36,672 nt of DNA from Lentilactobacillus rapi DSM 19907 = JCM 15042. GTDB lineage: Bacteria; Bacillota; Bacilli; Lactobacillales; Lactobacillaceae. Where the stretch lies: positions 1 through 36,672 of the forward strand of contig NZ_AZEI01000025.1 of the NCBI RefSeq assembly GCF_001436255.1. The letters are read 5' to 3'. The notes under the pieces were generated by a model, which was not told the DNA's origin, searched no databases, and worked only from the letters and a program-made list of their open reading frames with translations. Shown piece by piece: positions 2,957 to 35,715 of the stretch (positions within the stretch are counted from its first letter, which is position 1; each line of letters starts with the position of its first letter). The translations under genes and the position numbers were made by a program.

Positions 2957-3023
2957 CATCGGGTTAAGAACACAAAAATATTACTTAAATACGTTAATAT
3001 TAATTGGTTAACTGATGAAGAAA

Positions 3024-11394: not shown

Positions 11395-11826
11395 TTGAAA
11401 CCACAAGATATGCAACGTTATGCAAAGGTCGTATCGGATGTGATTGATTCAACATCCGCAAATGGTACGGACCTCAATGATGATTTTGAAATGTTACGAA
11501 AGGCAATTGATGCCAATACCGTTTCAGAATTGTCAACGGATGAATTAACAAGAATTAAGGCCCATTTCCAGTCAGGAACTGACAAATACAAGGAAAATGT
11601 CAATAAGCTTCAACAGGCACCGGTGCCCGTCAAGGTCTTGGGTAAACATAAGATGTTGGTTCGTCATTACGAGGACTATACCAACGCTTGCCAAGCAATG
11701 ACCGACAGTATTGATCCGGATGCCGCGGCAATTAATGTGGATCAGTTCAATAAGTCGGAAAAGGATCAAGAGGGTAGCATTGCGAAGGTTTCCAGTGTGA
11801 CGACGAGAATTATGGGTGGCATGTAA
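11395..11826 (+). CDS. Small unknown protein downstream of the cation ATPase
   Basis: 143 aa, soluble, no signal peptide, cysteine-free and predicted mostly alpha-helical. I do not recognise a family. It starts with TTG 11395, ten bases after GGGGG; an in-frame ATG at 11410 is an alternative. It follows the ATPase stop after 19 nt with no terminator, so co-transcription under the Mn2+-type leader is likely. Features are an acidic first half and a conserved-looking PVPVKVLGKHKMLVRHYEDY segment near residues 75-95. A role linked to metal export or stress is only a guess from position. Confidence 0.75.
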   Translation: MKPQDMQRYAKVVSDVIDSTSANGTDLNDDFEMLRKAIDANTVSELSTDELTRIKAHFQSGTDKYKENVNKLQQAPVPVKVLGKHKMLVRHYEDYTNACQAMTDSIDPDAAAINVDQFNKSEKDQEGSIAKVSSVTTRIMGGM

Positions 11827-11872
11827 GTAACCGACAGCGACTGTTTCAGATCTAAAAAAAGGGAACGCTAGC

Positions 11873-12040
11873 CGGCAAATTGTTTAAAATGCAACTTGGC
11901 TTTCCCTGATTATATTGATAAAACTTGCGACAAAAGGCTGATCCCGGCCATTTAAGCAAAACAAGCAGTGCATCCAAAAATAGGTGCACTGCTTGTTTTG
12001 CGTAAATTCTGGGATCAAATTGCGGCTCGTCTCAATCTTT
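11873..12040 (+). repeat. Dispersed intergenic hairpin repeat, copy 1 (forward)
   Basis: The left arm starts GGCAAATTGTTTAAAATGCA and runs through ACTTGGCTTT and GGCTGATCCCGGCCATTTAAG. A 23-bp stem (about 11950-12006, one mismatch) follows, then the right arm GGGATCAAA...CGTCTCAATC. The left arm matches copy 3 (22214-22398, opposite strand) at most positions over about 85 nt. It lies between the 143-aa gene and tex, and the hairpin could also end transcription. Confidence 0.85.
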
Positions 12041-12115
12041 CTTCTGCCCAATAATTTTTCTCGCTGACTGAACATGATATAATTAACCGTGACATTATTT
12101 GATGAGGTGGAATAA

Positions 12116-14281
12116 ATGACTGATACACTTGCCGAAAAGATTCGGCATGATTTACCCAAATTACGAATCAAACAAATTTCTGAAACACTGAAAATGTTCG
12201 ATGAAGGCGACACGGTTCCCTTTATTGCCCGGTATCGAAAAGAGCGAACCGGCAACTTGGATGAAGTTGAAATTCGAGATATTGAAGCGGCCGCTCACCG
12301 AATTCAGACGTTGGACAAGCGCAAAGCTGAGGTTATCAAAATCATCACCGAGCAGCAAAAGCTGACGCCTCAGCTCGAATCTGAAATCAACGCCGCAACC
12401 GTTCTCCAACAGGTTGAAGACTTATACTTACCATACAAACAAAAGCGGCGGACAAAGGCCACAATTGCCAAAGAGAAGGGCTTACAGCCATTAGCAGATG
12501 CTGCGTTAAAGTTTGCCCCTAATTTGGATAGTCTGGTTGAACAAGCAGTTGATCCAGAAAAAGAACTTCCTGATAAGGATGCTGTATTTGATGGTATCCA
12601 TGAAATTTTGGCTGAAACATTTGGCGACCGAGCCGACTTTCGAAATTGGGTTCGCCAGAATACCAATCAATACGGTGCCCTGGTGACCAAGATCAAAAGA
12701 GGTGCTAAAGAGGCTGACGAAGAAGGGACGTATCAGCAGTACTATGATTTTTCTCAATCCGTCAAATTAATTCCATCATTTAGAACCTTAGCGATCAATC
12801 GTGGTGAAAAGGAAGGCATTTTGTCGGTGAAAATCGACGTAAATGAAACGCCGATTGACTGGCATTTAAAAGCCAATACGGTTGGTAACCAAACTGGTTT
12901 GGCGGCCGAAGTTGTGGAAAGTGCCGTGTTAGACGCCTATTCACGCTTTATTGGTCCCGCAATCGAACGGGAAATTCGTAAAGAGTTGAGTGAAGTTGCC
13001 TACAATCACGCGATCGATATTTTTGGCAAGAATCTTTATAACTTACTCATGCAGGCGCCGTTAAAGGGTAAAGTTGTCATGGGCTTTGATCCGGCTTATC
13101 GGACTGGTTGTAAGCTCGCCGTGGTTGATCAGAATGGGAAGTATCTGGCCAAAACAGTGATTTACCCTCACAAGCCCGCTGGTGAAGCAAAACGAAAAGC
13201 AGCCAAAGGTGAATTCATTGATTTCATCAACCAAAACCACGTTGAAATGATTGCGATTGGTAATGGGACTGCCAGCCGGGAATCAGAGCAGTTCGTTGCC
13301 GACGCCATCAAAGAAATTGAGACGCCGATCTATTACGTCATTGTGAACGAGGCCGGGGCATCCGTTTATTCTGCCAGCAAGGTTGCCAGAGAAGAATTTC
13401 CAGATTTCAGTGTTGAACAACGATCGGCCGTTAGTATTGCCCGCCGCATTCAAGATCCGCTGGCTGAGTTGGTCAAAATTGATCCCCAAGCCATCGGAGT
13501 AGGGCAATATCAACATGATGTGCCTCAAAAACAGCTAGCTGAAAAACTGGATCAAGTGGTTGAAACCGCTGTTAACCGGGTGGGGGTTAATTTAAATACT
13601 GCCAGTCCGGATTTGTTGGTTCATATTTCTGGTTTAACCAAATCAACCGCAAATAATATCGTTAAGTACCGCAATGAGGCCGGCCAATTTAATGATCGCT
13701 CGGATTTGAAGAAGGTAGCCAGATTAGGACCGAAAGCGTTTGAACAGTCCGTCGGCTTCCTGCGCATCATTGATGGGGATAATCCACTTGATAATACGGA
13801 CATTCATCCGGAAAGCTATCCAGCAACCCACCAATTACTCAAGCAATCCAATCTGAGTGCAGCTGATCTTGGCAAACCGGTTGTTGCCCAAAAGCTCAGT
13901 CAAATTGATTTAGACCAAACTGCTCAGTCGCTAGAAATTGGTCGTGAAACGCTGCAGGATATCGTTAAGGGGATTGAGACCCCCGGCCGGGACTTGCGAG
14001 ATGAGATGCCAGCACCGTTACTCAGAAAAGATGTGTTAACAATGGCGGATTTGAAGCCGGGGATGAAGCTACAAGGAACCGTTCGAAACGTGGTTGACTT
14101 TGGCGTATTCGTGGATATTGGAGTTAAACAGGATGGCTTGGTGCATATTTCCAAAATGAGTGATCATTTTGTCAAAGATCCCAGTAAAGTGGCCTCTGTC
14201 GGAGATATTGTGACCGTTTGGATTGACTCGGTAGATGCTGATCGCCACCGGATTCAATTAACGATGGTGGAACCAGAATGA
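12116..14281 (+). CDS. tex: Tex-family RNA-binding transcription accessory protein
   Basis: 721 aa. Order: N-terminal Tex/HTH region with FDEGDTVPFIARYRKERTG, then a YqgF/RNase H-like domain (VMGFDPAYRTGCKLAVVD near residues 320-340). Next are helix-hairpin-helix motifs (VGVNLNTASPDLLVHISGL and GLTKSTANNIVKYR), and a C-terminal S1 domain (GMKLQGTVRNVVDFGVFVDIG...LVHISKMS). Tex binds nucleic acid and affects transcription and stress tolerance; its exact biochemical role is unsettled. An extended -10 (TGATATAAT, ending 12083) lies 33 nt before the ATG, and GAGGTGG is the ribosome binding site. It is followed directly by the broken sprT. Confidence 0.95.
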   Translation: MTDTLAEKIRHDLPKLRIKQISETLKMFDEGDTVPFIARYRKERTGNLDEVEIRDIEAAAHRIQTLDKRKAEVIKIITEQQKLTPQLESEINAATVLQQVEDLYLPYKQKRRTKATIAKEKGLQPLADAALKFAPNLDSLVEQAVDPEKELPDKDAVFDGIHEILAETFGDRADFRNWVRQNTNQYGALVTKIKRGAKEADEEGTYQQYYDFSQSVKLIPSFRTLAINRGEKEGILSVKIDVNETPIDWHLKANTVGNQTGLAAEVVESAVLDAYSRFIGPAIEREIRKELSEVAYNHAIDIFGKNLYNLLMQAPLKGKVVMGFDPAYRTGCKLAVVDQNGKYLAKTVIYPHKPAGEAKRKAAKGEFIDFINQNHVEMIAIGNGTASRESEQFVADAIKEIETPIYYVIVNEAGASVYSASKVAREEFPDFSVEQRSAVSIARRIQDPLAELVKIDPQAIGVGQYQHDVPQKQLAEKLDQVVETAVNRVGVNLNTASPDLLVHISGLTKSTANNIVKYRNEAGQFNDRSDLKKVARLGPKAFEQSVGFLRIIDGDNPLDNTDIHPESYPATHQLLKQSNLSAADLGKPVVAQKLSQIDLDQTAQSLEIGRETLQDIVKGIETPGRDLRDEMPAPLLRKDVLTMADLKPGMKLQGTVRNVVDFGVFVDIGVKQDGLVHISKMSDHFVKDPSKVASVGDIVTVWIDSVDADRHRIQLTMVEPE

Positions 14282-14300
14282 GGACAGAAGAGATATGCTA

Positions 14301-14771
14301 ATGACAAATACTGAATTATAACACTTAGTCGAACAAGTATCGATCCAATTTTTTTCCAGACCCTTCACGCATCGGGCCTACTTTAATCCCAGATTGCGGA
14401 CAACTGGTGGCCGTTATCATTTAGACAGTCACGACATTGATATCAATCCTAAGATGGACGATGGCCACTCTCATGACATTTTAATTGGCATTATCAAACA
14501 TGAGTTGTGCCATTATCATCTCAATCTCGCCGGATTCAGCGGTCGGCATAATACCCCTGAGTTTAAACAATTGTTACAGGCAGTTGGTGGATCCAGATAT
14601 GCACCACGAATTGAATCAACTACGCCTTCATTTCATGTTAAATATCTTTATCGGTGCACGCACTGTGGTCTGGAGTATCATAGGAAACGAAGGATCAATG
14701 TTTCGAAGTATGTCTGTGGTCGATGCCACAGCAGATTAACGTTAATCAATATCGGTCTCGAGAAACAATAG
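14301..14771 (+). pseudogene. sprT: SprT-like zinc metalloprotein, interrupted by an early stop codon
   Basis: Translating from ATG 14301 gives MTNTEL, then TAA at 14319-14321, then an uninterrupted continuation HLVEQVSIQFFSRPFTHRAY that fits the family N-terminus. The rest contains GGRYHLDSHDIDINPKM, the metalloprotease-like HELCHYHL motif and a zinc ribbon (CTHC...CGRC). Without the stop it would be 156 aa, a normal SprT-family length. No ATG, GTG or TTG occurs in frame after the stop until TTG 14394, which has no ribosome binding site and would lose about 31 residues. The stop is seen directly; a sequencing error is possible. Confidence 0.75.
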
Positions 14772-14798
14772 ATCATTGATAACGAAAGGAGTTTGACA

Positions 14799-15677
14799 AT
14801 GGCAAAACTAATTATTCGCGTTCCGGCGACTTCAGCCAACGTAGGTTCTGGATTTGATTCTGTTGGGGTTGCCCTTCATTTGTATTACACGGTAATTGTT
14901 GAAGAAAAAACCGATAAGTGGAAGGTTAATCATGCCCTGGGAGCTGATGTTCCAACCGATGAGCACAATTTAATCGTCCAGACAATTCTCAAAGTGGATC
15001 CAGACATTCATCCAAGACAGCTGACGGTTATCTCGGATGTTCCGATTGCCCATGGGCTTGGTTCGAGTACAACGGCCGTGGTGGCTGGGATCAAGATTGC
15101 CAATGTCTTAGGTGATTTGGATCTGTCGGTAGCAGATCAAATTAACCTTGGTTCTCGATTTGAAGGGCATTCAGAAAATGTTGCTTCCGCATTGTTGGGC
15201 CAGCTGACCGTCTCAACTTTCGATGGCCAACAAGCCGTTGCAACCCGGATTGAATTACCTGATGTGTACGCTTTGATGTATATTCGTCCTGATGGGATTA
15301 GTGAAGCGGAAAGCCGCAAAAAATTGCCTAAGACAATCAGCTTTGAAAAGGCGATTCATGCCAGCAGCAAAGAAAATGTTTTTGTTGCCCTTGCAGCTCA
15401 AGGTAAGTGGGATGAAGCGGTTAAATTAATCGAAGGGGACCAAATCCATGAGCCGGCTAGAAGAGAACTCGTACCAGAGATGGATACCATTTTGGAAACG
15501 GCGCATAAGCTCAATATTTACGGTACTTATTTGAGTGGTGCTGGACCAACTGTTTCAACTTTGGGAAAACAAGCGGCATTGACTGAACTCAGGATTGAAT
15601 TGCAACAAAAAAATATGAATGGTAGTTTACGACTGTTACAAATAGACCAAGAGGGCGCAACGGTTCGCGGCGAATAA
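14799..15677 (+). CDS. thrB: Homoserine kinase
   Basis: 292 aa, GHMP kinase superfamily. It phosphorylates L-homoserine with ATP in the threonine pathway. The N-terminal VPATSANVGSGFDSVGVAL and the ATP-binding loop PIAHGLGSSTTAVVAG (near residues 84-99) are diagnostic. The C-terminal YLSGAGPTVSTL is the third GHMP motif. The ATG at 14799 follows AAAGGAG; an upstream TTG at 14793 is too close to it. No hom or thrC is adjacent. The gene is followed by its own stop and the tRNA-Leu promoter. Confidence 0.93.
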   Translation: MAKLIIRVPATSANVGSGFDSVGVALHLYYTVIVEEKTDKWKVNHALGADVPTDEHNLIVQTILKVDPDIHPRQLTVISDVPIAHGLGSSTTAVVAGIKIANVLGDLDLSVADQINLGSRFEGHSENVASALLGQLTVSTFDGQQAVATRIELPDVYALMYIRPDGISEAESRKKLPKTISFEKAIHASSKENVFVALAAQGKWDEAVKLIEGDQIHEPARRELVPEMDTILETAHKLNIYGTYLSGAGPTVSTLGKQAALTELRIELQQKNMNGSLRLLQIDQEGATVRGE

Positions 15678-15686
15678 AAAAAGTAT

Positions 15687-15715
15687 TTGTCATGACTGCT
15701 AATTTCTGCTATAAT
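15687..15715 (+). promoter_or_regulatory. Promoter of tRNA-Leu
   Basis: TTGTCA (15687-15692) and TATAAT (15710-15715) with 17 nt between, ending 13 nt before the mature tRNA. Confidence 0.85.
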
Positions 15716-15728
15716 TTTATCTGTTGAT

Positions 15729-15814
15729 GCGGCCATGGCGGAATTGGCAGACGCGCAAGATTAAGGATCTTGTCGAGAATTATCTCGGTGGAAGTTCGAA
15801 TCTTCTTGGCCGCA
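15729..15814 (+). tRNA. tRNA-Leu (AAG)
   Basis: An 86-nt class II tRNA. The acceptor stem is GCGGCCA/TGGCCGC with discriminator A. The anticodon stem CAAGA/TCTTG closes the seven-base loop TTAAGGA, so the anticodon is AAG. The long variable arm (GTCGAGAATTATCTCGGT) and T-arm are typical of tRNA-Leu. A34 is expected to be deaminated to inosine to read CUN codons. CCA is not encoded. Confidence 0.93.
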
Positions 15815-15819
15815 TTATT

Positions 15820-15864
15820 AAAGTCCGAGTTACTATCATTTTGGTAGTAATTGGGACTTTTTTT
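15820..15864 (+). terminator. Terminator of tRNA-Leu
   Basis: AAAGTCC and TTACTA on the left pair with TAGTAA and GGACTTT on the right, followed by a T-run. Confidence 0.85.
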
Positions 15865-16032
15865 GTTGAGGCATGATTGATGAACACTGTTTGATTGGAC
15901 TGCAGCAAAATTTTGACACTGAAAATGTAGTGGCCCATCGGCTCGCAAAGGCAGTTTGAACAGGGGCTTCATTGAAACTACGCAACAACTTAGCGCCACC
16001 TGATTCACAAATCAATAATTGGAGTTGACTGT

Positions 16033-16647
16033 ATGAAGTATTTGATATTTGATGTCGATGGAACTTTAATCGACACAGAAAAAATGTACCTTTTGCCACT
16101 GCATAAAACACTCATCGAGAACGGGTATGATGTTACATATGATGACGTGAAAAAGGTCTTTGGAATCACCGCCACTGACGCCCTCAAGATTTTGGGGGTT
16201 CAGGATGTTGAGGGGATGCTCGCCAAGTGGTTTGGTCAAATCAAGGACTATAAGCACTATGCTCACGTTTATCCCGGAATTACTGACGCGTTGGCTAAGA
16301 TCCACGCTATGCAAAATACGCGGCTGGCAATTGCAACGTCAAAACAGGAAAACGAATTTCATCGAGATGTCACCCGATTTGGTCTGGATAAATATTTTGA
16401 TCAATTTGTATTCTCAAATGAAATTAAACACGGTAAACCAGCTCCTGATATGGTTCTAAAAGGAATCGAAAAATTAGCCGCAAATCCTGATGAAACGATC
16501 TATATCGGTGATACAATTTATGATCTGCAGGCTGCCCACGCTGCAAATGTCAAATTTGCGTTAGCCGGTTGGCGAACCAAAAAAACAGCCGAATTTGAGA
16601 AAACCGATTACGACCTTCATACACCAGCCGACTTACTTAAGATTTAA
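16033..16647 (+). CDS. HAD-superfamily hydrolase (phosphoglycolate phosphatase-like)
   Basis: 204 aa, cytoplasmic. Motif I is FDVDGTLID with nucleophile Asp7 and acid/base Asp9. Motif II is ATSK (near residue 99), motif III Lys lies in EIKHGKPAPD, and motif IV is IGDTIYDL. A helical cap of about 65 residues sits after motif I. This is the HAD-IA/PGP-beta-PGM type that dephosphorylates small phosphates; the substrate cannot be assigned. The start ATG follows TTGGAG. No promoter is obvious in the 168 nt upstream. Confidence 0.88.
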   Translation: MKYLIFDVDGTLIDTEKMYLLPLHKTLIENGYDVTYDDVKKVFGITATDALKILGVQDVEGMLAKWFGQIKDYKHYAHVYPGITDALAKIHAMQNTRLAIATSKQENEFHRDVTRFGLDKYFDQFVFSNEIKHGKPAPDMVLKGIEKLAANPDETIYIGDTIYDLQAAHAANVKFALAGWRTKKTAEFEKTDYDLHTPADLLKI

Positions 16648-16736
16648 GATAACCAAGATGAAACCGCTCTTTTGTGATATATTGGTGGTAACTAAATTTA
16701 GAACATAAGATTAATGACAAATGAAAAGGTGATTGG

Positions 16737-17147
16737 ATGATTTCGATTTTAGTTGCAAGTCATGGTCGACTTTCAGAAGAGATTGTCAAAACTTCTGAAA
16801 TGATTGCTGGCAAGCAGGCACAGATTAGTTGGCTGTCTTTGGATCCCAATGATGGCATTGATTCACTGCAAGCTAAATATAATAAAGCGTTGACAGTGTT
16901 TACTGAACATCATGATGTGTTAATTTTCACTGATATGTGGGGTGGTTCACCATTTGAGGCAGCTGGTCGGATCGTTGCGGACAATCCCAAGCATATTGCG
17001 TTAATTGGTGGCGTTAATTTACCGATTCTGTTAGAGGCGTTTGTTTCCAGAAAGACATCTCTAACCAACTTAGTAGATCATTTGATGTCAGTTTCCAAAA
17101 ATGCCATCCGCCAATTTAAGTTATCAGAAAATCATGAAGGGATTTGA
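16737..17147 (+). CDS. PTS EIIA component, mannose (EIIA-Man) type
   Basis: 136 aa. It begins MISILVASHGRLSEE, with His9 the expected phosphorylation site, and TDMWGGSPFEAA and GGVNLPILLEA are family blocks. It would accept phosphate from HPr. No EIIB, EIIC or EIID gene is adjacent, so it is either an orphan that serves a remote PTS or a regulatory phosphocarrier. The start ATG follows AAAAGGTG. The gene is followed closely by a 106-aa protein of unknown role, probably in the same transcript. Confidence 0.9.
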   Translation: MISILVASHGRLSEEIVKTSEMIAGKQAQISWLSLDPNDGIDSLQAKYNKALTVFTEHHDVLIFTDMWGGSPFEAAGRIVADNPKHIALIGGVNLPILLEAFVSRKTSLTNLVDHLMSVSKNAIRQFKLSENHEGI

Positions 17148-17152
17148 GACCA

Positions 17153-17473
17153 ATGGATAATTTATTCGATGTATTGAAGATGGTGAGTTTCAATCACATG
17201 GGGTTTGATGCTTCTCAGGTGGTCATTACCGATTTGGAAGGGAAACCGAATGGTATTTTAACCGACTTGTACAGAGACGTTGTTAATAAAATTAATTTGT
17301 TTATTGATCTACGGTCGGCAAGAGATGCTGGTGATGTTTTGACGCTATTACGGGCTCATACGCCACTTCCAGATGATGTTCTGGAGGAATATGGTAAGAT
17401 CCTAGAAGAACCGCTTATCAGGATTAATTTCGCTCCTCAGAAGGGACAAATGGAATTACAAGTTCGTGGTTAG
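17153..17473 (+). CDS. Small unknown protein paired with the orphan EIIA
   Basis: 106 aa, not recognised. It starts MDNLFDVLKMVSFNHMGFDA and shows no membrane segment or signal peptide. The ATG at 17153 lies five bases after the EIIA stop; a TTG at 17144 would overlap that stop and is less likely. The Shine-Dalgarno is only GAAGGG at a long distance, so translational coupling to EIIA is plausible. It is followed by a strong bidirectional terminator, so EIIA and this gene form a two-gene unit. A partner or target of the EIIA is a guess. Confidence 0.7.
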   Translation: MDNLFDVLKMVSFNHMGFDASQVVITDLEGKPNGILTDLYRDVVNKINLFIDLRSARDAGDVLTLLRAHTPLPDDVLEEYGKILEEPLIRINFAPQKGQMELQVRG

Positions 17474-17487
17474 TTTTATCCGTTCAT

Positions 17488-17552
17488 CACTATGTTAAAA
17501 AGACCTATTTCGTTAGTCAGTTCGGCTAATGAAATAGGTCTTTTGCATAGTG
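17488..17552. terminator. Bidirectional terminator between the EIIA operon and the LCP gene
   Basis: AAAAGACCTATTTCGTTAG pairs with CTAATGAAATAGGTCTTTT, extended outward by CACTATG/CATAGTG. It sits between convergent genes. Confidence 0.9.
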
Positions 17553-17557
17553 TTTAA

Positions 17558-18664
17558 TTAATAACCATTGTAGGATGATTGATTACCAGTGGTATCAGTC
17601 CCAGTTGTGGTTGATCCATCGGTATCAGTTTGGGTCTGGGAACTTTGTAGCTTCTTTGACTTGGACAGGCCAAGTGTTGATCGAATATCGTTTGAAACCC
17701 GGAGCAATTCAGTTTGAGGAACAACCTGATAGGACAAACCATCGATCATGGCGTTTTCGCCTTGTAAGGTTTGTGACTTAATATGGTGAGTTGCATCGCC
17801 ATATTTTGCGCGAATTGCAATCATGTCATCAAATGTCATGTCAGTTTTCATATTTCCTTTGAGAGATGAAAGAATTGACTTATATCTTGGAAGGGAGGTG
17901 ACGTTCAAACCTTTCATCACCAGCTTCTTGATGATTTGGCGTTGACGGGCTTGACGGCCGTAATCCCCACGAGGATCATCATCACGCATTCGGGCGTAAT
18001 CTAGGGCTTGTTGACCGTTTAGGTGGGTCTTCTTGCCTTTAACGACGTTTGCATGCCCATATTGGAATGTCAGCGGGGGAACAACGTCCACGCCACCGAC
18101 GGCATTGACCATGGTTTCCAAACCGCCCATATTGATGATCGCGTAGAAGTCAATTGGGATATCCAGCAGGTTCTGGACTGTCTTAACGGCTGTTCCCGGC
18201 CCACCAATGGTATAAGCCGCGTTAATCTTCTCGTACTGTTGAGTATCCCCGGGGACGTTAACCTGCGTGTCTCTGGCAATACTGGTTAAATGGATTGTTT
18301 TCTTCTTAGGATTAACAGTTGCCACAATCATGGTATCCGTTCGACCGGTATCGTGACGGCCAAGTGCACCAGTGTCTGTTCCTAGTAACAAGATCGACAA
18401 AGGCTTACCCTTTTGAATGACGGATGACACGTTTCTGGCTTTTTGAATATTTGTTGAATCGTAAGTTTGGGTGAAAGTCTTTTTGGCGCTCTTATAAGCA
18501 CCATAGCCCCAAACAAGTCCGCTCCCGACAATAAGGAGGAAAACCAGAAAGACACTCCAGCCGATGATGCGGCGCTTCTTTTTGTTGCCCTTCTTGTAAT
18601 GGGGCTTTTTGTCAGCCCTTCTTGAATATACAGGTTCAAAATCGTTTTTATTGTTTGATGGCAT
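17558..18664 (-). CDS. LytR-CpsA-Psr (LCP) family cell wall polymer ligase
   Basis: 368 aa. A basic cytoplasmic tail (1-32) is followed by one membrane helix (about 33-54) and an extracellular LCP domain. ILLLGTDTGALGRHDTGRTDTM, TSIARDTQVNVPG and DYARMRDDDPRGDYGRQARQRQ carry the conserved Asp and Arg residues that bind the polyprenyl phosphate. The C-terminus is a Ser/Thr/Gln-rich low-complexity tail of about 35 residues. LCP enzymes attach teichoic acids or capsule to peptidoglycan. ATG follows GAGGAG. The specific polymer is not known, but tagA at 5139 is a possible functional partner. Confidence 0.93.
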   Translation of the reverse strand: MPSNNKNDFEPVYSRRADKKPHYKKGNKKKRRIIGWSVFLVFLLIVGSGLVWGYGAYKSAKKTFTQTYDSTNIQKARNVSSVIQKGKPLSILLLGTDTGALGRHDTGRTDTMIVATVNPKKKTIHLTSIARDTQVNVPGDTQQYEKINAAYTIGGPGTAVKTVQNLLDIPIDFYAIINMGGLETMVNAVGGVDVVPPLTFQYGHANVVKGKKTHLNGQQALDYARMRDDDPRGDYGRQARQRQIIKKLVMKGLNVTSLPRYKSILSSLKGNMKTDMTFDDMIAIRAKYGDATHHIKSQTLQGENAMIDGLSYQVVPQTELLRVSNDIRSTLGLSKSKKLQSSQTQTDTDGSTTTGTDTTGNQSSYNGY

Positions 18665-18739
18665 AGTGACTCCTCATTTATAAAAATTCTTACAAAAGTA
18701 TATTGCACTTTACAGATCAGATGCAGAAATCTTCAGTTA

Positions 18740-18768
18740 TTTAAACATAATTTAATAATTCTCGTCAA
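18740..18768 (-). promoter_or_regulatory. Candidate LCP gene promoter
   Basis: On the minus strand TTGACG (18768-18763) and TTTAAA (18745-18740) have a 17-nt spacer. This leaves a leader of about 70 nt before the start codon. Confidence 0.6.
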
Positions 18769-18865
18769 CTCGTTCCGATGGCCATCCCTCAAATTATAAC
18801 AAAATGTGGATTCTAATTGTGCTATAATGTGTCATTGTTATTCTTGTTAGAAGTGAGGAATGTGT

Positions 18866-19810
18866 ATGGGAGTATTTGGCTCAGCAGTATCCGGGGTCTT
18901 GATTATTCTAATTATGATTGCCCTGGGATTTATATTAGCTAGAAATGATTGGTTTGACAGTAAGATGACCAGCATGTTTGCCAGGCTGGTCACTCAGATT
19001 GCTTTACCAGCGTACATGATATCGACTATCATGAGCAAGTTTACAGCGAAAATGTTATTAAAAACGTTACCGGATTTATTTTTTCCGATTGTATCGATGC
19101 TTTTGCTCTATATTATTTCGATTTTCGTCGTGAGATTTGCTAAGATTCCGAAGATGCACGCTGGCTTATTTAGGTCAATGTTTTCCAACTCTAACACGGT
19201 TTTCGTCGGTTTACCAGTTAATATGGCATTGTTTGGTCGATCGAGCTTGCCGTTTGTTTTGGTTTACTACATGGCTAATACCACATTCTTCTGGACATTA
19301 GGTGTTTACCTGATTCAAAAGGATGGCAAAGGTGAGGGTGAATTCAATTGGAAAACTACTCTGAAAAAGGTGTTTTCACCGCCACTCCTTGGGTTCATGG
19401 TCGGAGTTGTTCTGGTTCTATTTCACGTATCACTCCCCGATTTTATCATGCAGGACTTTAATTACATAGGGAACCTGACAATCCCACTTTCGATGATTTT
19501 CATCGGAATTTCCATTAATAGCGTCGATATCACCCGGGTTCGATTTGATCGCAGTAACTTTTTGATTTTATTCGGTCGGTTTTTACTAGCTCCGGCACTC
19601 ATGTCGCTGCTTGTGATTCCAACCCATTTACCTTTGCTAATGAAACAGGTATTTATCATGCAAGCGGCGATGCCAATCATGACAAACGCACCGGTTGTTT
19701 CCAGGCTCTATCATGCTGACTCGGAATACGCGTCGGTCATGGTTGCCGAAACAACGCTGTTAAGCCTGGTGGTCATTCCAATTCTGATGGTATTAGTTCA
19801 ACAACTATAG
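18866..19810 (+). CDS. AEC (auxin efflux carrier) family permease
   Basis: 314 aa with about ten hydrophobic helices, the typical AEC length. It has the family's pseudo-duplicated plan, with FSNSNTVFVGLPVNMALFG in the first half and NLTIPLSMIFIGISI in the second. In lactic acid bacteria such permeases move malate or other small acids or amino acids; the substrate is not readable. The start is ATG 18866, six bases after GTGAGGA; an ATG at 18860 abuts it. An extended -10 TGCTATAAT (TATAAT 18823-18828) lies 37 nt upstream. It is monocistronic by spacing. Confidence 0.88.
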   Translation: MGVFGSAVSGVLIILIMIALGFILARNDWFDSKMTSMFARLVTQIALPAYMISTIMSKFTAKMLLKTLPDLFFPIVSMLLLYIISIFVVRFAKIPKMHAGLFRSMFSNSNTVFVGLPVNMALFGRSSLPFVLVYYMANTTFFWTLGVYLIQKDGKGEGEFNWKTTLKKVFSPPLLGFMVGVVLVLFHVSLPDFIMQDFNYIGNLTIPLSMIFIGISINSVDITRVRFDRSNFLILFGRFLLAPALMSLLVIPTHLPLLMKQVFIMQAAMPIMTNAPVVSRLYHADSEYASVMVAETTLLSLVVIPILMVLVQQL

Positions 19811-19888
19811 CAGGGGATCTTTGATCATGAGCCACATTATTGGTAACATATTCTTGGATACTAATTTTTGTAAAAAGAGGATGAAAGT

Positions 19889-20563
19889 GTGCCAACACTA
19901 GTCATAATGCGTCATGGTGAAAGCCAAGCAAATCGAGACAATATCTTCACCGGGTGGAGCGACGTTGATCTAACCGAAAAGGGGATTCAACAGGCTCATT
20001 TTGCTGGCCAGGTCATTAAGTCAGCTGGGGTGCAATTTACGGATGTTCACACATCTTTTTTAAAGCGTGCCATTATTACCACCAACATTGTGTTAGATGA
20101 GATTGGACAAAATGATATTGCAGAACACAAAAGCTGGCGGTTAAACGAACGTCACTACGGTGGGTTGCGAGGTAAAAACAAGCTTGCCGTTAAGCGGCAA
20201 GTTGGCGCCGACCAGTTGAAAATCTGGCGAAGAAGTTTTACGGTGGTACCGCCAAAGTTGGCCAAGCGAGATGAGGATCCCCGATATGATCGTTACGGGG
20301 TTCAAATTCCATTGGCAGAAAGCTTGAAAATGACCATGGATCGCTTGATTCCATATTGGGAAGATCAGATTGCACCGCAACTTTTAGACGGCAAAAACCA
20401 GTTAATCGTTGCTCACGGGAGCACGTTGAGAGCCTTAATTAAATTTTTGGAAAATGTTTCTGATGAGGAAATTCCAAATGTTGAAGTTCCAAATGGGAAG
20501 CCGATTCGGTATGATTTTGATGAACATTTAAATATTTTGAATAAAGAATTTATGACCAAGTAA
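19889..20563 (+). CDS. gpmA: 2,3-bisphosphoglycerate-dependent phosphoglycerate mutase
   Basis: 224 aa, glycolysis/gluconeogenesis, interconverting 3- and 2-phosphoglycerate. LVIMRHGESQAN carries the phosphohistidine His9, with FTGWSDVDLTEKG, LNERHYGGL and VAHGSTLRALIK as the other active-site blocks. The start is GTG 19889 after AGAGGATGAAA. The length is slightly below the 228-230 aa of many homologues, and the segment between residues 95 and 150 is divergent. A paralogue may exist elsewhere. It is followed by repeat copy 2. Confidence 0.9.
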   Translation: MPTLVIMRHGESQANRDNIFTGWSDVDLTEKGIQQAHFAGQVIKSAGVQFTDVHTSFLKRAIITTNIVLDEIGQNDIAEHKSWRLNERHYGGLRGKNKLAVKRQVGADQLKIWRRSFTVVPPKLAKRDEDPRYDRYGVQIPLAESLKMTMDRLIPYWEDQIAPQLLDGKNQLIVAHGSTLRALIKFLENVSDEEIPNVEVPNGKPIRYDFDEHLNILNKEFMTK

Positions 20564-20644
20564 CCAGGTTGACAATTAATCACTAGAGGCTTGGACATAT
20601 ATTAATTTTCAATCAGTAATTATTCGCTGGGATCACTGTAGTCA

Positions 20645-20755
20645 CTGGAAAGAAGTTGTACCAGAAGGCAGGCCCTGGCCATTTAATGAAAAGGACCAAC
20701 TATTCCTGCTTTGGAATAGTTGGTCCTTTTCATTAAATTCCGGGATCAAAACTTA
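20645..20755 (+). repeat. Dispersed intergenic hairpin repeat, copy 2 (forward, shortened)
   Basis: A reduced left arm (AAGTTGTACCAGAAGGCAGG..CCATTTAA) is followed by a 26-bp perfect stem (20690-20715 with 20722-20747, loop TGCTTT), then CCGGGATCAAAAC. Identity to copy 1 is clear next to the stem and fades to the left. It sits between convergent gpmA and pepC, where it could also act as a terminator. Confidence 0.75.
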
Positions 20756-20794
20756 GAATTAACAACTTTTTGACCCATGATTATTAGAGTATCT

Positions 20795-22129
20795 TTAGGC
20801 TAAGGCACCCATTGGATCCCATGGCTTCAAAACAGTTGGTTCTTGTTGTTGCGCTTTCTTTTGATCGTCCGAAAGGTATTTCTTATTAATCACAAACTGA
20901 TAAACAAACTCGTCCATCCACTTATCACTCATGACGAAGTAGCCTTTAGTGCCGACTTTTTCTCCCCAGCTGTTTTCAACCTTCCATTTAGTTGGTTTGC
21001 CATCAACGAGATCAACACCGGTGATGACCATTGCGTGGGTCATCAAACTTTCACTGTAGTCCAAACGTTCTGCTTTGGATAATGAAAGGTCAGTGTCGAA
21101 TAATTCATCAGGGGCATATAAATCAGTGTCCATAATTCCTTTTTTGCTGTTAGAACTCTGACCAACATCACTACCAAACCAAACAGATTCGCCATTTTCC
21201 AACTGCATAATGGCTAACTTCTTGAGGTCGGCCATTTTCAAGTTTAGATGTTTGACTTGACGACCATTAACAACGTTACCTAACATTTCGATGGTATAAG
21301 TTTTGTTAAATGGCTTGTCGTCGGTTGGTGAGTTGATGAGCGAAACATAATCTTCAAGATTAATTCCAACGTACTTTTTGAAAAAGTCTTGAGGGGTGAT
21401 GTTTCGATCAATATGGTAATTGTTGTCTTTGTCGCGATATTCGAAGTCGAATTTGGTAACAGGTTCACCGAGTGCGTAAGTCAACATCCGATAAATTTCA
21501 TTGAGCATTTTTTCTTTAGTTTTTGAAATTTTGCTGTCTGATGCTTTGTCAGCAACCAGCTCACGAAGAACGGTCGCGTCATGACGTAGCTTGAGGTTCA
21601 GGTATTTGTTAAGTTGAGCAGACTTTTCACTGCTGAAAGTTTCTGGCATTGCATACTTAGGTACGATGCCATATTTCTCAATTAATGCACACAGCATATC
21701 CCATTGGCCGCCATCCTGTTGAGGCGTTTGCATCAACCAGGAAACTTTTCTGGAATCCAGCGGTTTGTCAGCCGTCTTGAGTACATTTTCCAAGAAGTAG
21801 TTAGACTTTTCGAATTTGTCCCAGAAGTTGGTGTAGTTTTGGGATAATTCAAAATCATCGCTCACTTTTAATTCGTTCATCAAACGAATCCGCATGGTGT
21901 TCAAAGCCGCGAACATCCAGCAACGACCGCTTTGTTTTTGATCGGCAACTTTGCCAGTTGACAGATCAATTGAAAATACAGGGGCCATTTTCGATTCGGC
22001 ACTAAAGTCCTCACTAGAGCCTAATATTCCTTGATGGGAAACAGCTCGTTCAATAACCTTTGAATCCTTGCGGTCATCAAGATTCTGTTGGAACTTGTTA
22101 ATTTGGTCTAATTTGATTTCTGATGTCAA
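20795..22129 (-). CDS. pepC: Aminopeptidase C (cysteine aminopeptidase)
   Basis: 444 aa, a papain-like bleomycin-hydrolase family peptidase that trims peptides in the cytoplasm. The catalytic triad is visible: Cys70 in QSGRCWMF, His365 in MTHAMVITG and Asn386 in VENSWG. The C-terminus PWDPMGALA is the conserved tail that enters the active site and gives aminopeptidase specificity. The start is TTG 22129 with AAGGAGAG nine bases upstream. It is a single gene, common in lactic acid bacteria for casein and peptide use. Confidence 0.95.
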   Translation of the reverse strand: MTSEIKLDQINKFQQNLDDRKDSKVIERAVSHQGILGSSEDFSAESKMAPVFSIDLSTGKVADQKQSGRCWMFAALNTMRIRLMNELKVSDDFELSQNYTNFWDKFEKSNYFLENVLKTADKPLDSRKVSWLMQTPQQDGGQWDMLCALIEKYGIVPKYAMPETFSSEKSAQLNKYLNLKLRHDATVLRELVADKASDSKISKTKEKMLNEIYRMLTYALGEPVTKFDFEYRDKDNNYHIDRNITPQDFFKKYVGINLEDYVSLINSPTDDKPFNKTYTIEMLGNVVNGRQVKHLNLKMADLKKLAIMQLENGESVWFGSDVGQSSNSKKGIMDTDLYAPDELFDTDLSLSKAERLDYSESLMTHAMVITGVDLVDGKPTKWKVENSWGEKVGTKGYFVMSDKWMDEFVYQFVINKKYLSDDQKKAQQQEPTVLKPWDPMGALA

Positions 22130-22213
22130 AAATGATCACTCTCCTTAATACCAAACTATTTTACGCTCATTAAGCTTAAATCGCCAGAACTTCGCAAGCG
22201 AGTGGATAAAATT

Positions 22214-22398
22214 AGATCAGGACGAGATTGAGACGAAAGGTGCTTTGATCCCGTCATTTAAGTGAAAAAAGGAATGCATTCCAAAAAACAGAATGCATTC
22301 CTTTTTTCACTTAAATGACGGAGATCAGCCGTTTGTTACAAGCTTTGTCAATATAAGAATGAAAAGCCAAGTTGCATTTGTAAACATTTTGCTGACTA
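22214..22398 (-). repeat. Dispersed intergenic hairpin repeat, copy 3 (reverse)
   Basis: On the minus strand: GCAAAATGTTTACAAATGCA, ACTTGGCTTTTCATTC and GGCTGATCTCCGTCATTTAAG, then a 30-bp perfect stem (22252-22281 with 22291-22320). The right arm is GGGATCAAAGCACC...CGTCTCAATC. This is the best-preserved copy. It lies between rpiA (3' side) and pepC (5' side), both on the minus strand. Confidence 0.88.
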
Positions 22399-22418
22399 AT
22401 GTCTCCGCCTCAATAAAA

Positions 22419-23102
22419 TTATCTGGCCTTTAATACCTCAGGCCCATCTTCTCGCCCCACAATCACCGTGTTCACGATGTTTAAAAAGAGACCGTGTTCG
22501 ACAATGCCAGTCATTTGATCCAGGTCGACTGCCAAGCTGTGAGGATTTTCGATTTGGTGTAGGTGAAGGTCGATGATATCGTTGTCCGAGTCTGTCTTGA
22601 CTCGTTGACCATCCTGAACTCGAAATTCGGGGTTATAGCCCTTTTCTTTGAGCCGTTTGAATAGTTGGCGGCTACCGTACGGAATAACCTCTAATGGTAG
22701 TGGGAATGACCCCAATTCATCGGCCATTTTGCTTTCGTCAACGATCCACATGTTTTTGTCGGAATTAATGGCAACGATTTTTTCCCAAAGGTGGGCACCG
22801 CCACCGCCTTTGATTCCTTGGAAGTTTTTGTCGATTTGATCTGCACCGTCAATCGTTAAATCAATGTGATCGACTTCGTCTACGCCCTTGGTTGGGATCC
22901 CCAAGAGATTGGCTTGTTTTCGAGTCCGTTCAGAAGTAGGAACGCCAACGATTGACAAGCCCTCGTTCTTAACACGGTCGCCCAATGCATCGACCATGAA
23001 TTTAACCGTGGATCCGGTCCCGAGACCAACGACCGTGTTATTTTCAACATATTTGACAGCTTCTTTACCAACGAGTTGTTTAAGTTCATCCTGATGTGTC
23101 AT
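22419..23102 (-). CDS. rpiA: Ribose-5-phosphate isomerase A
   Basis: 227 aa, interconverting ribose 5-phosphate and ribulose 5-phosphate in the pentose phosphate pathway. [17 protein letters not shown], the [12 protein letters not shown] block, [13 protein letters not shown] and GIVEHGLFL are family signatures containing the catalytic Asp and Lys region. The start is ATG 23102 with AAAGGAA upstream. A longer in-frame reading to 23180 adds a basic tail that lacks a ribosome binding site and is rejected. Confidence 0.96.
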
Positions 23103-23248
23103 AATATAGTTCCTTTCGTTTTTAGCTTGTTTAAAGGTTTTACTTACCCACATTGTGCGTTTTTTTAGCCTTTTTGTCAATGTATCAAATCAGCAACAGT
23201 TAGTTTATACTAGTAAGAATAAAATATTCTCAAGGGAGTTGCATTAAA

Positions 23249-23788
23249 ATGGATCGTGGATTTGAAATTGTGTCAAAATATGCTAAGGATGATTTAACTA
23301 TTCCATACCGAACAACTAAAAGCGCAGCTGGTTATGACTTTGAAAGTGCAATTGACATGACGATCCCGTCAATTTGGAAAATCAACTTTTTGAAGGTTCT
23401 CTGGGCAATCCGTCATCAAAAAACCATTGATGATTCAAAGATCGATGCTGCCAAAAAGATCCTAAAACCATTTTTAATTCCAACCGGCATTAAAGCCTAC
23501 ATGAAACCCAATGAAGTGCTGATCATTGCCAATCGTTCAAGCAATCCTTTGAAACGGGGCCTGGTGATTCCAAATGGGATCGGTGTGATTGACGCTGATT
23601 ACTATAATAACGAAGGGAATGAAGGCGAAATTTTCGTCCAAATCCTCAATTTTGGGATAACTGACATTAAGGTTGCGAAGGGTGAACGGATCGGCCAAGG
23701 GATTTTTATGCCGTATTTGTTAGCCGATCAGGATCAGTCCACTCATAAGCAAACGAGGAGCGGTGGTTTTGGTTCGTCAGGCCGCTAA
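23249..23788 (+). CDS. dut: dUTP diphosphatase (dUTPase)
   Basis: 179 aa. It hydrolyses dUTP to dUMP, keeping uracil out of DNA. The five motifs can be seen: AAGYDFES (1), NRSSNPLKRG (2), GVIDADYYNNEGNEGEI (3), GERIGQGIF (4) and RSGGFGSSG (5). Motif 2 reads NRSSNPLKRG rather than RSSLAxKG, and motif 3 has an extra NNEGNE stretch. About 25-30 residues are inserted between motifs 1 and 2, so the chain is longer than the usual 140-150 aa. The ATG follows AAGGGAG. It is next to radA, separated by about 100 nt. Confidence 0.9.
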   Translation: MDRGFEIVSKYAKDDLTIPYRTTKSAAGYDFESAIDMTIPSIWKINFLKVLWAIRHQKTIDDSKIDAAKKILKPFLIPTGIKAYMKPNEVLIIANRSSNPLKRGLVIPNGIGVIDADYYNNEGNEGEIFVQILNFGITDIKVAKGERIGQGIFMPYLLADQDQSTHKQTRSGGFGSSGR

Positions 23789-23885
23789 AATTTAAGAGTG
23801 GCTAAAGTATGCGGTGAACCAATTATTTTTTAAAGCAAAAGTGCTAAAATTGTTATGTAACATTTAGGAGTAGAGGAGAATTTAG

Positions 23886-25259
23886 TTGGCAAAAGTTAAA
23901 ACCCAATATGTTTGTCAGAATTGTGGCTACATTTCCCCGAGGTATCTGGGAAGATGCCCAAATTGTAATGAATGGAATACCCTGGTCGAGGAAACGGTCG
24001 CGGCCAAGCCCACCGCTTCAAGTGCAACGAGTTTGCGGCGGACCGGCATCCATGATAATAAGCCTGAACCATTAGACAAGGTCAAATTTCAACGAGAAAA
24101 CCGATTTAAAACTTCAATGGAAGAATTGAATCGGGTCCTTGGTGGCGGTGTTGTGCCGGGATCACTGATTTTGATTGGCGGTGATCCGGGAATTGGTAAG
24201 TCGACTTTGATGCTGCAAGTTTCAGGCCAACTGAGCAAATCCGGTAAAATTCTTTATGTTTCCGGTGAAGAAAGTGCCAGCCAAATCAAGATGCGGGCTG
24301 CCAGGCTTGGTGTCAACGGCGATCAACTCTATGTCTATCCTGAAACGGATATGGATGTAATTAAAAGCACCATTAGTGAGATGAAGCCGGATGCTGTCGT
24401 GATCGATTCTGTTCAGACAATGCAAATTCCAGAATTACAATCAGCAACGGGTTCGGTTGCTCAAATCCGCGAAGTGACGGCTGATCTCATGAATATTGCT
24501 AAAGGACAAGGCATCACCGTCTTTGTTGTTGGTCACGTTACCAAGGGCGGCGCCATCGCTGGTCCAAAAATTCTCGAGCATATGGTGGATACTGTGCTCT
24601 ACTTCGAAGGTGATCTCCATCATTCTTATCGGATTTTGCGGACAGTCAAGAATCGGTTTGGCTCGACCAATGAATTAGGGGTTTTCGAAATGCGAATGGA
24701 TGGCTTGCATGAAGTGACCAATCCATCAGAGATCTTTCTGGAAGAACGATTAAAGGACGCAACTGGTTCTGCGATTGTTGTTTCAATGGAGGGTACCCGG
24801 CCAATTTTGGTTGAAATTCAAGCATTAGTGACCGCCTCGGTTTTTGGTAACGCTCAACGGACAGCCGCCGGTCTTGATCGGAATCGCGTTTCACTGATTA
24901 TGGCGGTTCTTGAGAAAAGAGCCGGTTTGATGCTTCAAAACCAGGATGCTTATTTGAAGGCAGCTGGTGGGGTGAAGCTGGATGAACCCGCAATTGATTT
25001 GGCAATGGCCGTTAGTATTGCCTCATCTTACAAGAATCGTGGGACCAGCCCAACAGAGTGTTACGTTGGTGAACTGGGGTTGACCGGTGAGGTTCGACGC
25101 GTTACCAGAATTGAACAGCGGGTTATTGAGGCCCACAAGCTTGGGTTCAAGCGGGTTTTAGTTCCAAGTAACAATTTACAAGGTTGGACGCCACCCAAGG
25201 GAATCGAAGTTGTCGGTGTTTCGACGTTATCGCAAGCATTAAAATTAGCCTTGGGATAA
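23886..25259 (+). CDS. radA: DNA repair protein RadA
   Basis: 457 aa. An N-terminal zinc finger (Cys10, 13, 24, 27) is followed by a RecA-like ATPase with Walker [11 protein letters not shown] (98-107), the KNRFG motif (from Lys255) and a C-terminal Lon-like domain. RadA helps process recombination intermediates and branch migration. The start is TTG 23886 after GAGGAGAA. An extended -10 TGCTAAAAT (TAAAAT 23845-23850) lies about 36 nt upstream. The PIN/TRAM gene follows after 28 nt, likely in the same operon, as in Bacillus (radA-disA/yacL region). Confidence 0.95.
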
Positions 25260-25287
25260 CATTTATTTTTGAGAGAAGGCGATATTA

Positions 25288-26460
25288 GTGAGAAGAAAGA
25301 GAATTGTTCAAATTGTTTTCACCCTTGCTGGGGCCGCAATTGGTGCCAGTTATTTCAAGTTGTTGTGGTTAATTTTACAGGTTAGGTACGGGACGCTTTT
25401 CAACAACACCATTACAAATGCGTTGGTTGGTGCAATTATTTTCTATATTATTTCGTTGTTGACAGGAAATTACGTCCTCAAGCTAATTGACCGAGTTGAA
25501 GGCCAGTTGACCAAGCAGAGCCCATTATCTCTTATCTTTGGGACTTTGGGGCTTATTGTTGGCCTGGTAGTGGCAATATTGATTTCAATCGTATTCTTTA
25601 GAACCCGGACGTTCTTCTTGAATACGATGATTCCAATTATCTTGATGTTGGTCCTTGGGTACTTTGGTTTTCGAATTGGGACAACCCAAAATGATCGTTG
25701 GCGCCGGCTTTTTCAATCAAGACGCAAATCAGAATCTGCTAAGGAATCAGGTGAAAAAATCATTGATAAGCCGGTTGATAAAAATTACCATCATTACAAG
25801 ATTTTGGATACCAATATTTTAATTGACGGCCGAATTTATGACGTCATTAAGACTGGATTTATTGAAGGCACATTGCTGGTTCCTCAATTTGTCCTCTACG
25901 AACTGCAATACATCGCTGATTCTAGCGATAGCGTGAAGCGGGTTCGCGGTCGGCGTGGACTTGATATTCTCAATAAGCTGCAAACCGAAAAATTGATTCC
26001 AATTGAAATTTACGAAAAGGATTATGAGGATATCGATGAAGTTGATAGCAAATTAATCCAGCTTGCCAAGGACATCGATGGTGTGATTATTACAAATGAC
26101 TATAACCTCAACAAAGTGATTCAGTTCCAGCATGTCCAAGTGTTCAACATTAACGCCTTAGCGAATGCATTACGACAAAAGATCCTGCCCGGACAAAATC
26201 TTAATGTGATGGTCGTTAAAAACGGAACTGAGCGGCAACAAGGAGTTGCTTACCTGGATGACGGAACGATGGTGGTTGTTGAAGATGGTCGCTACTTCTT
26301 GAATGATCATATTGACGTTGTGGTTACCAGTGCCATCCAAACTGATGCCGGTAAGATGATTTTTGCCCGACCGGAACATTCAACCAAGAACATTTCTGAA
26401 AATAATGAAGAAGACAGCAAGAAAAACAATTCATCAAAGAAAAATGGTAAAAAGAATTAA
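25288..26460 (+). CDS. yacL: PIN/TRAM-domain membrane protein (YacL family)
   Basis: 390 aa. Four membrane helices span roughly residues 1-135. A PIN nuclease-like domain begins at ILDTNILIDGRIYDV (Asp174), with further acidic residues in EVDSKLIQLAKDIDG and ITNDYNL. A TRAM RNA-binding domain follows, and the tail from about residue 370 is Asn/Lys/Ser-rich. The PIN fold is normally an RNase, but the substrate of YacL is not known. The start is GTG 25288 after GAGAGAAGG. It is co-oriented with radA and followed by repeat copy 4. Confidence 0.92.
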   Translation: MRRKRIVQIVFTLAGAAIGASYFKLLWLILQVRYGTLFNNTITNALVGAIIFYIISLLTGNYVLKLIDRVEGQLTKQSPLSLIFGTLGLIVGLVVAILISIVFFRTRTFFLNTMIPIILMLVLGYFGFRIGTTQNDRWRRLFQSRRKSESAKESGEKIIDKPVDKNYHHYKILDTNILIDGRIYDVIKTGFIEGTLLVPQFVLYELQYIADSSDSVKRVRGRRGLDILNKLQTEKLIPIEIYEKDYEDIDEVDSKLIQLAKDIDGVIITNDYNLNKVIQFQHVQVFNINALANALRQKILPGQNLNVMVVKNGTERQQGVAYLDDGTMVVVEDGRYFLNDHIDVVVTSAIQTDAGKMIFARPEHSTKNISENNEEDSKKNNSSKKNGKKN

Positions 26461-26484
26461 CAACAATCTTTAACTGACACTCAA

Positions 26485-26675
26485 AAGGATGGGATCAAGA
26501 CTAAACGCGGCTTGATCCAAGAATTTAAGAAAAACGGCAGTACATTCTGATTCTGGAATGCATTGCCGTTTTTGCTTAAGCGGCGGGGATTAACCATTTA
26601 TCGCAACCCTTATCAGTATAAAAATTACGAGGTAAGTTACATTCATAAACAATTTGCCGACTAACCTCCCAGCCC
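26485..26675 (-). repeat. Dispersed intergenic hairpin repeat, copy 4 (reverse, diverged)
   Basis: On the minus strand: GTCGGCAAATTGTTTATGAATG, GTTGCGATAAATGGTTAATCCC, a 23-25 bp imperfect stem (about 26523-26580), then TTGGATCAAG. It aligns with copies 1 and 3 but with more substitutions. It lies between yacL and gltX, both on the plus strand, so it is antisense to both. A local GGATCAAG/CTTGATCC inverted repeat sits in its right arm. Confidence 0.8.
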
Positions 26676-35682: not shown

Positions 35683-35715
35683 TAAATCCCAACTAGAATT
35701 TTGGGAGGTGAAATT

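Follow-up and report, generated by a model that had tools for sequence, protein, structure and literature searches.

The stretch of DNA analysed here (the window) comprises 36,672 nucleotides of contig NZ_AZEI01000025.1 of Lentilactobacillus rapi DSM 19907 and carries four copies of an intergenic element of about 185 bp (range 169-188 bp in the window's genome), which is non-coding and recurs in at least 122 places of that genome. These elements are probably mobile, terminator-replacing miniature inverted-repeat transposable elements (MITEs) of the IS1182 type. They lie at the 3' ends of genes, they take the place of unrelated hairpins found at orthologous sites of a closely related species, they are nested in one another, and their ends are those of insertion sequences (ISs) of the IS1182 family; they are filed as a MITE of that family because they behave like an IS1182 element and share its ends. 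Here we present the family, its structure and its insertion sites, together with the explanations that compete for them.

Element family and distribution

A covariance model (R1), built from 24 copies including the four of the window and four from Levilactobacillus, was run against the genome of the window (G000; 2.85 Mb, 87 contigs). It yielded 137 rows, 15 of which were antisense duplicates of hairpins, so that at least 122 places remain (E ≤ 0.001); this is a lower bound, as 150 of 1839 candidates were scored. The analyses below used 114 of the 122 places (E ≤ 1.1e-8, omitting the eight weakest), of which 89 could be located on retrieved DNA. The four copies of the window are as follows (bit scores are those of R1; arm and hairpin types are described in the next section).

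Copy 1: 11860..12039, + strand, full-length, left arm type I, hairpin A, 126.1 bits
Apical section of the hairpin in copy 1 (GCAAAACAAGCAGTGCATCC / GGTGCACTGCTTGTTTTGC): 11956..12001, + strand, one arm with an A tract and the other with a T tract (read by eye), probable terminator
Copy 2: 20586..20767 (both ends approximate), + strand, left arm type II, hairpin B, right end decayed, 76.2 bits
Copy 3: 22224..22409, - strand, full-length, left arm type I, hairpin A, 123.9 bits
Copy 4: 26491..26674, - strand, full-length, diverged, left arm type I, hairpin A, 106.6 bits

A DNA search with copy 3 alone, which is independent of R1, concurs (71 rows in the same genome, including the query itself and antisense hairpin matches). 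The four elements are confirmed as members of one real family, as the first-pass annotation of the window had proposed, with arms that occur throughout the genome and its relatives and model E-values far below chance. Several details of that annotation needed revision. The words it listed as shared (GCAAAnTGTTTA, AATGYAACTT and CGTCTCAATC) are common to copies 1, 3 and 4 at most and are missing from copy 2, which belongs to another subtype. Copies 1 and 3, said to align almost base for base, are 73% identical over the aligned stretch, i.e., clearly related only, and the limits given were too narrow, since the element extends outward to the ends GAGRYTGGGACR and GTCCCAGCCTC. There are indeed four copies in 15 kb, but against a genome-wide density of about one per 23-25 kb this is a modest cluster chosen post hoc. 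The lack of coding potential holds: the elements are shorter than 190 bp and no open reading frame (ORF) of at least 90 aa is common to the four copies, the only one over any of them (11884-12255, minus strand) being without counterpart over the other three.

Regarding the genus Lentilactobacillus, family matches were found in 20 of 24 genomes (G000 included; four of the 20 with one weak row only), and the number of rows per genome ranged from 0 to 124 across species (e.g., 82 in G001, 113 in G003 and 124 in G004). In a sample of the Lactobacillaceae, 51 of 151 genomes (the window's own included) and 19 of 40 genera yielded matches (E ≤ 1e-6). Strongly diverged relatives of the element were seen in L. 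diolivorans (L037:9665-9805 and 14707-14848) and L. kisonensis (L034:20526-20667), so that species seem to own separate subfamilies. G003, taken as L. dabitei, served for close comparison. The genome of the window is close to this species: the pepC-like proteins are 100% identical, and DNA identity is 95-98% in the regions flanking copies 2, 3 and 4. At the gathering score no Rfam family was found over the four window copies, and relaxed thresholds, applied to two stretches, gave only sub-threshold matches over the copies. No description of the family appeared among the open-access papers listed by the literature searches (including GGCTGGGAC as text, the terms repeat, MITE and terminator, and terms for IS1182).

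Structure of the element

Full-length copies run from GAGRYTGGGACR to GTCCCAGCCTC. Both ends (GAGAYTGGGACR and GTCCCAGCC(TC)) are present in 73 of the 89 placed copies of G000, which measure 169-188 bp. In the orientation of the first-pass annotation, GAGGCTGGGACA forms the left end; then come the left arm (about 65 nt), TTGCGACAAACGGC and TGATCCC, followed by a long hairpin and, beyond it, GGGATCA, GCC and TTTCGTCCCAATCTC. The left arm exists in two sequence types, I and II, and so does the long hairpin, A (with AAGTAATGCATTCC) and B (with GACCAACTATTCC). In a left-end variant, Ib, CAATCTAAGATTAG stands in place of GAGGCTGGGACATTAG (examples are L004:4201, L025, L030 and L011). The 73 full-length copies comprise the combinations I-A (21), I-B (6), II-A (4), II-B (26), II with another hairpin (3), Ib-A (9) and Ib-B (4); with arm and hairpin types joined in all combinations, the element is modular. 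Copies without the left arm also occur.

Helices form between TTGCGACAAACGGC and GCCTTTCGTCCCAA and between TGATCCC and GGGATCA, and the long hairpin folds back on itself. The elements of Levilactobacillus have the same helices in other letters (GTGGGACAAAAGGC / GCCTTTTGTCCCAC and AGTCAA / TTGACT). In an alignment of 42 rows fitted to the model (two of them antisense), 40 of 45 pairs showed changes on both sides, with a covariation score of 0.560 compared to a mean of 0.163 after shuffling.

One arm of the long hairpin carries an A tract and the opposite arm a T tract; counted by script with one interruption allowed, both tracts are present in 61 of the 73 full-length copies, and the T tract of the 3' arm in 69. 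The internal hairpin is thus a probable bidirectional terminator, judged from its sequence. None of the internal hairpins was listed by a terminator scan, presumably owing to the base pairing between their two tracts. In some copies the loop of the hairpin is inverted (window 22224-22409 versus L033 9729-9916; also L001 and L005). Compared by eye with its counterpart in L. dabitei, copy 3 shows both an inverted loop and matched changes in the two arms, as expected from loop inversion and from quasipalindrome correction between arms.

Location relative to genes

Gene contexts were taken from mechanical ORF calls and element ends estimated from the model; 74 of the 89 placed copies were readable, 11 lay at edges or overlapped an ORF, and four were far from genes. 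In all 74 readable contexts the 3' end of at least one neighbouring gene points toward the element: 39 copies are flanked by convergent genes and 35 by tandem genes (29 with the stop codon at their right end, six in the opposite orientation), whereas none lies between divergent genes. The orientation bias in tandem contexts (29 of 35) is significant (p = 5.8e-5). L. dabitei gave a similar picture (65 contexts: 37 convergent, 22 + 5 tandem, 1 divergent), with a gene 3' end toward the element in 64. The distance from the right end to the stop codon in G000 has a median of 24 bp and does not exceed 77 bp in 62 of 68 cases. On the sense strand of the 73 full-length copies, the flank preceding the right end is rich in A and the flank following the left end is rich in T, a pattern like that bordering a terminator hairpin.

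In the window, copies 2 and 4 have the majority orientation. Copy 2 is placed between convergent pgm-like and pepC-like genes, and several other Lentilactobacillus species have ordinary-looking terminators at its place (by eye). Copy 4 has its right end 30 bp from the end of a PIN-domain ORF, its left end adjoining a segment (CTTTATTTTT) that is conserved upstream of gltX. Copies 1 and 3 have the left end at a stop codon. In copy 1 it lies 33 bp past the stop of the ORF at 11395-11826, the right end facing the start of the gene at 12116-14281; in copy 3 it lies 9 bp from the rpiA stop codon, the right end pointing toward the start of the pepC-like gene.

Hairpin replacement at orthologous sites

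Twenty-five sites of G000 without a known counterpart were queried in L. dabitei; 10 were readable, 10 lay near contig ends and five had no strong match. An eleventh site, L149, came from a separate flank comparison. At seven of these 11 sites L. dabitei has an unrelated hairpin (no R1 match better than E = 0.1) in place of the element, and these seven hairpins fold with z scores of -3.0 to -11.7. Five of them (L149, C9:18468, C45:5999, C13:9145 and C12:30899) are typical terminators with a T tract. In one example, L. dabitei has TTAAAAAA-GTACCTACGAATTCAAATCGTAGAT-ACTTTTTTAATG where the window's genome has TTAAAAAA-GAGATTG...CCCAACC-ACTTAATG. The ends of the element fall at the base of the old stem or within one of its A and T tracts, a few copies still have both old stem arms (up to 12 bp) beside them, and no target duplication was seen by eye at the readable L. 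dabitei sites. The seven sites hence combine a hairpin target, its partial deletion and a lack of duplication, which together characterize insertion of the IS1182/IS1272 type. At L149 terminators are also present in G006 and G009, two further species with the same gene order, and the element is therefore the newcomer there; the direction of change at the other sites rests on the identity of the element.

Regarding the copies of G000 with both flanks in L. dabitei loci (41, a set biased to shared sites because the loci were fetched for L. dabitei's own copies), the element was shared at 39 and absent at two, L149 and L157, the latter a new copy that is nested next to a worn relative. When the comparison was turned round, both flanks could be matched to G000 loci for 42 of 74 L. 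dabitei copies; 40 of these loci contain an element and two do not. (At L188:1591-1735 and L234:3877-4016 of L. dabitei the orthologous G000 places have no model match, and these may be L. dabitei-specific insertions.) Copies nested inside older hairpins were found at L009, L161, L176, L157, L152, L007 and L003.

Empty sites are not confined to this pair of species. Among 12 places tried in Levilactobacillus, L. diolivorans and Lapidilactobacillus, two were clear empty sites with a hairpin between close species (L064:1911-2052 versus L070, and L070:7351-7492 versus L064), and the rest were shared, too diverged or had no comparable locus. At one Levilactobacillus site, L. koreensis (L070) as well as two further species of the genus (L063 and L076) have ordinary-looking terminators, versus elements in L. 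andaensis (L064) and L. fujinensis (L071) that lie in opposite orientations; at the second, L. andaensis has a plain hairpin where L. koreensis has the element.

In the survey of 25 sites, the 10 flanks near contig ends were no more than about 300 bp away from one or the other end of an L. dabitei contig (C165, C39, C54, C19, C178, C193 and others). Short-read assemblies thus probably break at this element, which may explain such break points.

Relationship to IS1182

An exact search for GAGRYTGGGACR gave 24 matches, compared with two for the reversed control. The match at C7:1853-1864 is not an element copy; it is the end of an IS, whose adjoining transposase matches IS1182 with 305.8 bits (cut-off 270). 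ATTTTTT follows this IS end directly, and the stop codon of the next ORF is 14 bp on. Within the 24 genomes of the genus, IS1182 transposases exceed the cut-off in three and give any match in 15. Thirty IS1182 loci were returned, 10 of which, picked among the stronger matches and short C-terminal pieces, were examined for their ends. GTCCCAGCCTC was found with at most one mismatch in seven of the 10 (about 0.05 expected by chance per 3-kb locus) and with two mismatches, inside the same GGGACTTNTGTC context, in two more; L325 had none. In two full ISs, L304 (1709 bp, starting with GAGGCTGGGACATAAGTCCC) and L302 (1797 bp), the match extends to both termini. L302 is flanked by inverted arms, ATGAACTGAA and TTCAGTTCAT, which by their sequence appear to be a hairpin target.

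Compared over 20 positions (the first two just outside the element end as drawn), the left-end consensus of type II agrees with the IS end at 15, the first 14 being consecutive, and that of type I at 16. Random 20-mers of the window gave a mean of 4.9 matches, and 14 or more were reached four times in 100000. The element is thus shorter than about 500 bp, has terminal inverted repeats that it shares with autonomous ISs of the IS1182 family and has no transposase of its own, as is characteristic of a MITE.

A size difference of 1.2 kb beside one copy (L173 versus L204) was considered as an autonomous version of the element and rejected, the long ORF there being transporter-like by eye, not a transposase. 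The transporter-like gene (L173:1908-2828) stands beside the element, and L. dabitei has about 1.2 kb less sequence at that place.

Proposed mechanism and alternatives

We propose that an IS1182-type transposase, acting in trans, recognizes the ends of the element, which would then be inserted into hairpin-forming DNA, chiefly intrinsic terminators just past stop codons. Part of the target hairpin would be lost without target duplication, so that the A and T tracts of the old terminator would come to flank the element. The internal hairpin, with its own A and T tracts, would take over termination; as it would terminate in the old one's stead, the cost to the host should be small. Newer copies would come to lie inside older ones because the hairpin of the element is itself a target. 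The high copy number, sites at which one of two close species has the element and the other lacks it, terminal inverted repeats in common with IS1182 insertion sequences, nesting and patchy spread all favor the mobilized, non-autonomous element that the first-pass annotation had put forward as one of two possibilities.

A number of observations weigh against terminator-replacing MITEs of the IS1182 type. Regarding the ends, the average agreement of single copies with the IS end is about 12 of 20 positions (maximum 17). The similarity covers only a short stretch, outside which the element has no apparent relationship to the ISs inspected. The variant end Ib was not seen on these ISs and occurs in 13 of the 73 full-length copies; one Ib copy (C13:9145) lies at a site with a plain hairpin in L. 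dabitei, so that the variant end seems to be mobile, too. Transposases above the cut-off are scarce, with none in the copy-rich genomes G001, G003 and G004, and the only IS1182 match in the window's genome, L301 (C7:201-1751), has an in-frame TGA (its other end is out of view, as the contig starts about 200 bp before it). Regarding the sites, the hairpin at C12:520494 is long and without a T tract, and that at C28:942 is weaker, with its T tract on the other strand. The hairpins at C71:1599 (44.8 bits) and C22:28869 (41.6 bits) weakly match R1 and may be worn relatives of the element, and at C22:3173 and C43:2461 L. dabitei has an internally deleted element, which is uninformative for replacement. 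Outgroup evidence for the direction of change comes from L149 only. Flank complementarity in the 73 full-length copies, which would be expected had both arms of the former hairpin persisted, shows no overall excess over shuffled pairing (4.10 versus 3.92), and copies 1 and 3, half of those in the window, have the less common orientation. The covariation, finally, could reflect RNA function, DNA hairpins or the correction of one arm by the other.

The last point leads to the best of the alternatives, which we nevertheless regard as unlikely: a conserved structured RNA, or a 3'-UTR (3' untranslated region) terminator family, kept by selection for RNA function, whose multiplication would be incidental. 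Copies just past stop codons and pairing kept across genera by changes on both sides are what it would predict, and a conserved hairpin and probable terminator is what remains of the first-pass suggestion of a conserved RNA family. DNA pairing or arm correction explains the pairing equally well, however, since arm-to-arm correction and inverted loops yield covariation without selection on RNA. Orthologous sites that lack the element in other species, the range of rows from none to 124 per genome, unrelated neighbor genes and the lack of an Rfam match also speak against it.

Less probable still is an exchange without any transposase, in which template switching or microhomology during replication fork passage would substitute one hairpin bordered by A and T tracts for another, the family being simply the commonest donor. 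Such an exchange would account for the tract borders common to old and new hairpins, for the lack of target duplication, for the mosaic of arm types I and II with hairpins A and B and for the copies without a left arm. It does not fit with conserved ends that match those of IS1182, nor with a published transposon of the IS1182 family that has the same mode of insertion (PMC4923244).

Hairpin-rich short repeats at the 3' ends of genes are typical of REP elements, which, together with the copies lacking a left arm, would speak for a Y1 (REP-associated/IS200) transposase or a reverse transcriptase (RT) as mobilizer, as in REPINs or retroelements; we consider this very improbable and rejected both candidates, as their distribution does not follow copy number: the Y1 family PF01797 was found in seven of the 24 genomes (once in the window's genome) and RT in eight, several copy-rich genomes lack PF01797, and neither enzyme is present in G001 (82 rows), G008, G013, G014 or G022.

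Comparison with known systems

Group IIC introns are mobile, terminator-associated retroelements that insert next to the stem; in the present family, no RT tracks the element. The closest parallel in mode of insertion comes from IS1272 and TnSha1, members of the IS1182 family in staphylococci, for which PMC4923244 reports that they always integrate into hairpins, that five of seven targets were confirmed as terminators by RNA-seq, and that insertion occurs in either orientation, removes part of the hairpin and does not duplicate the target; a review cited within that paper treats IS1182 members that target palindromes. In a large survey, IS1182 was over-represented between convergent genes (PMC9208149). 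The likeness to IS1272 and TnSha1 consists in the mode of insertion and in the transposase family of the ISs that bear the element's ends. IS1272 encodes a transposase and TnSha1 is a transposon of 3 kb, whereas the present element is a non-coding sequence of 185 bp with more than 100 copies and its own hairpin terminator, found in the Lactobacillaceae.

Short intergenic repeats that insert in one another are also known from Streptococcus pneumoniae as SPRITE, RUP and BOX (PMC3049150). Of these, SPRITE, which resembles a terminator and is concentrated close to the 3' ends of genes, comes nearest to the present element in appearance. It has AAAA/TTTT ends and an 18-bp duplex, and its authors found neither an empty site that was easy to compare nor an IS that matched it; for the present element, in contrast, empty sites were found as well as an IS family whose ends match (SPRITE and the element being compared by description only). 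Repeated stem-loops were likewise surveyed as stem-loop sequence families in 40 genomes, including Lactobacillus johnsonii (PMC2267715); the parts of that survey seen include no Lentilactobacillus and no terminator replacement.

Significance

The insertion of IS1182-family elements into terminator hairpins was known before; what we rate as new are small, non-coding elements of this type that replace terminators, and with them a large, unnamed repeat family of the Lactobacillaceae tied to a transposase family. They would offer a concrete route to the wholesale replacement of intrinsic terminators in evolution, by a selfish element that repairs the function destroyed by its insertion, and with more than 100 natural insertion sites in one genome they make the recognition of hairpin DNA by an IS1182 transposase testable. 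Tentatively, and with more doubt than confidence, IS1182-type MITEs could be seen as generally driving the turnover of terminators in Firmicutes, with terminator hairpins exchanged genome-wide by a transposase that recognizes the shape of DNA. If so, about a hundred gene 3' ends would share one mobile hairpin in copy-rich species, and other unexplained terminator-like repeats, e.g., the pneumococcal SPRITE, may be of the same kind.

Other features of the window

Apart from the element copies, Rfam matches in the window comprise a TPP riboswitch (3007-3096, - strand) and a ribosomal protein L10 leader (35580-35689, + strand), both ordinary.

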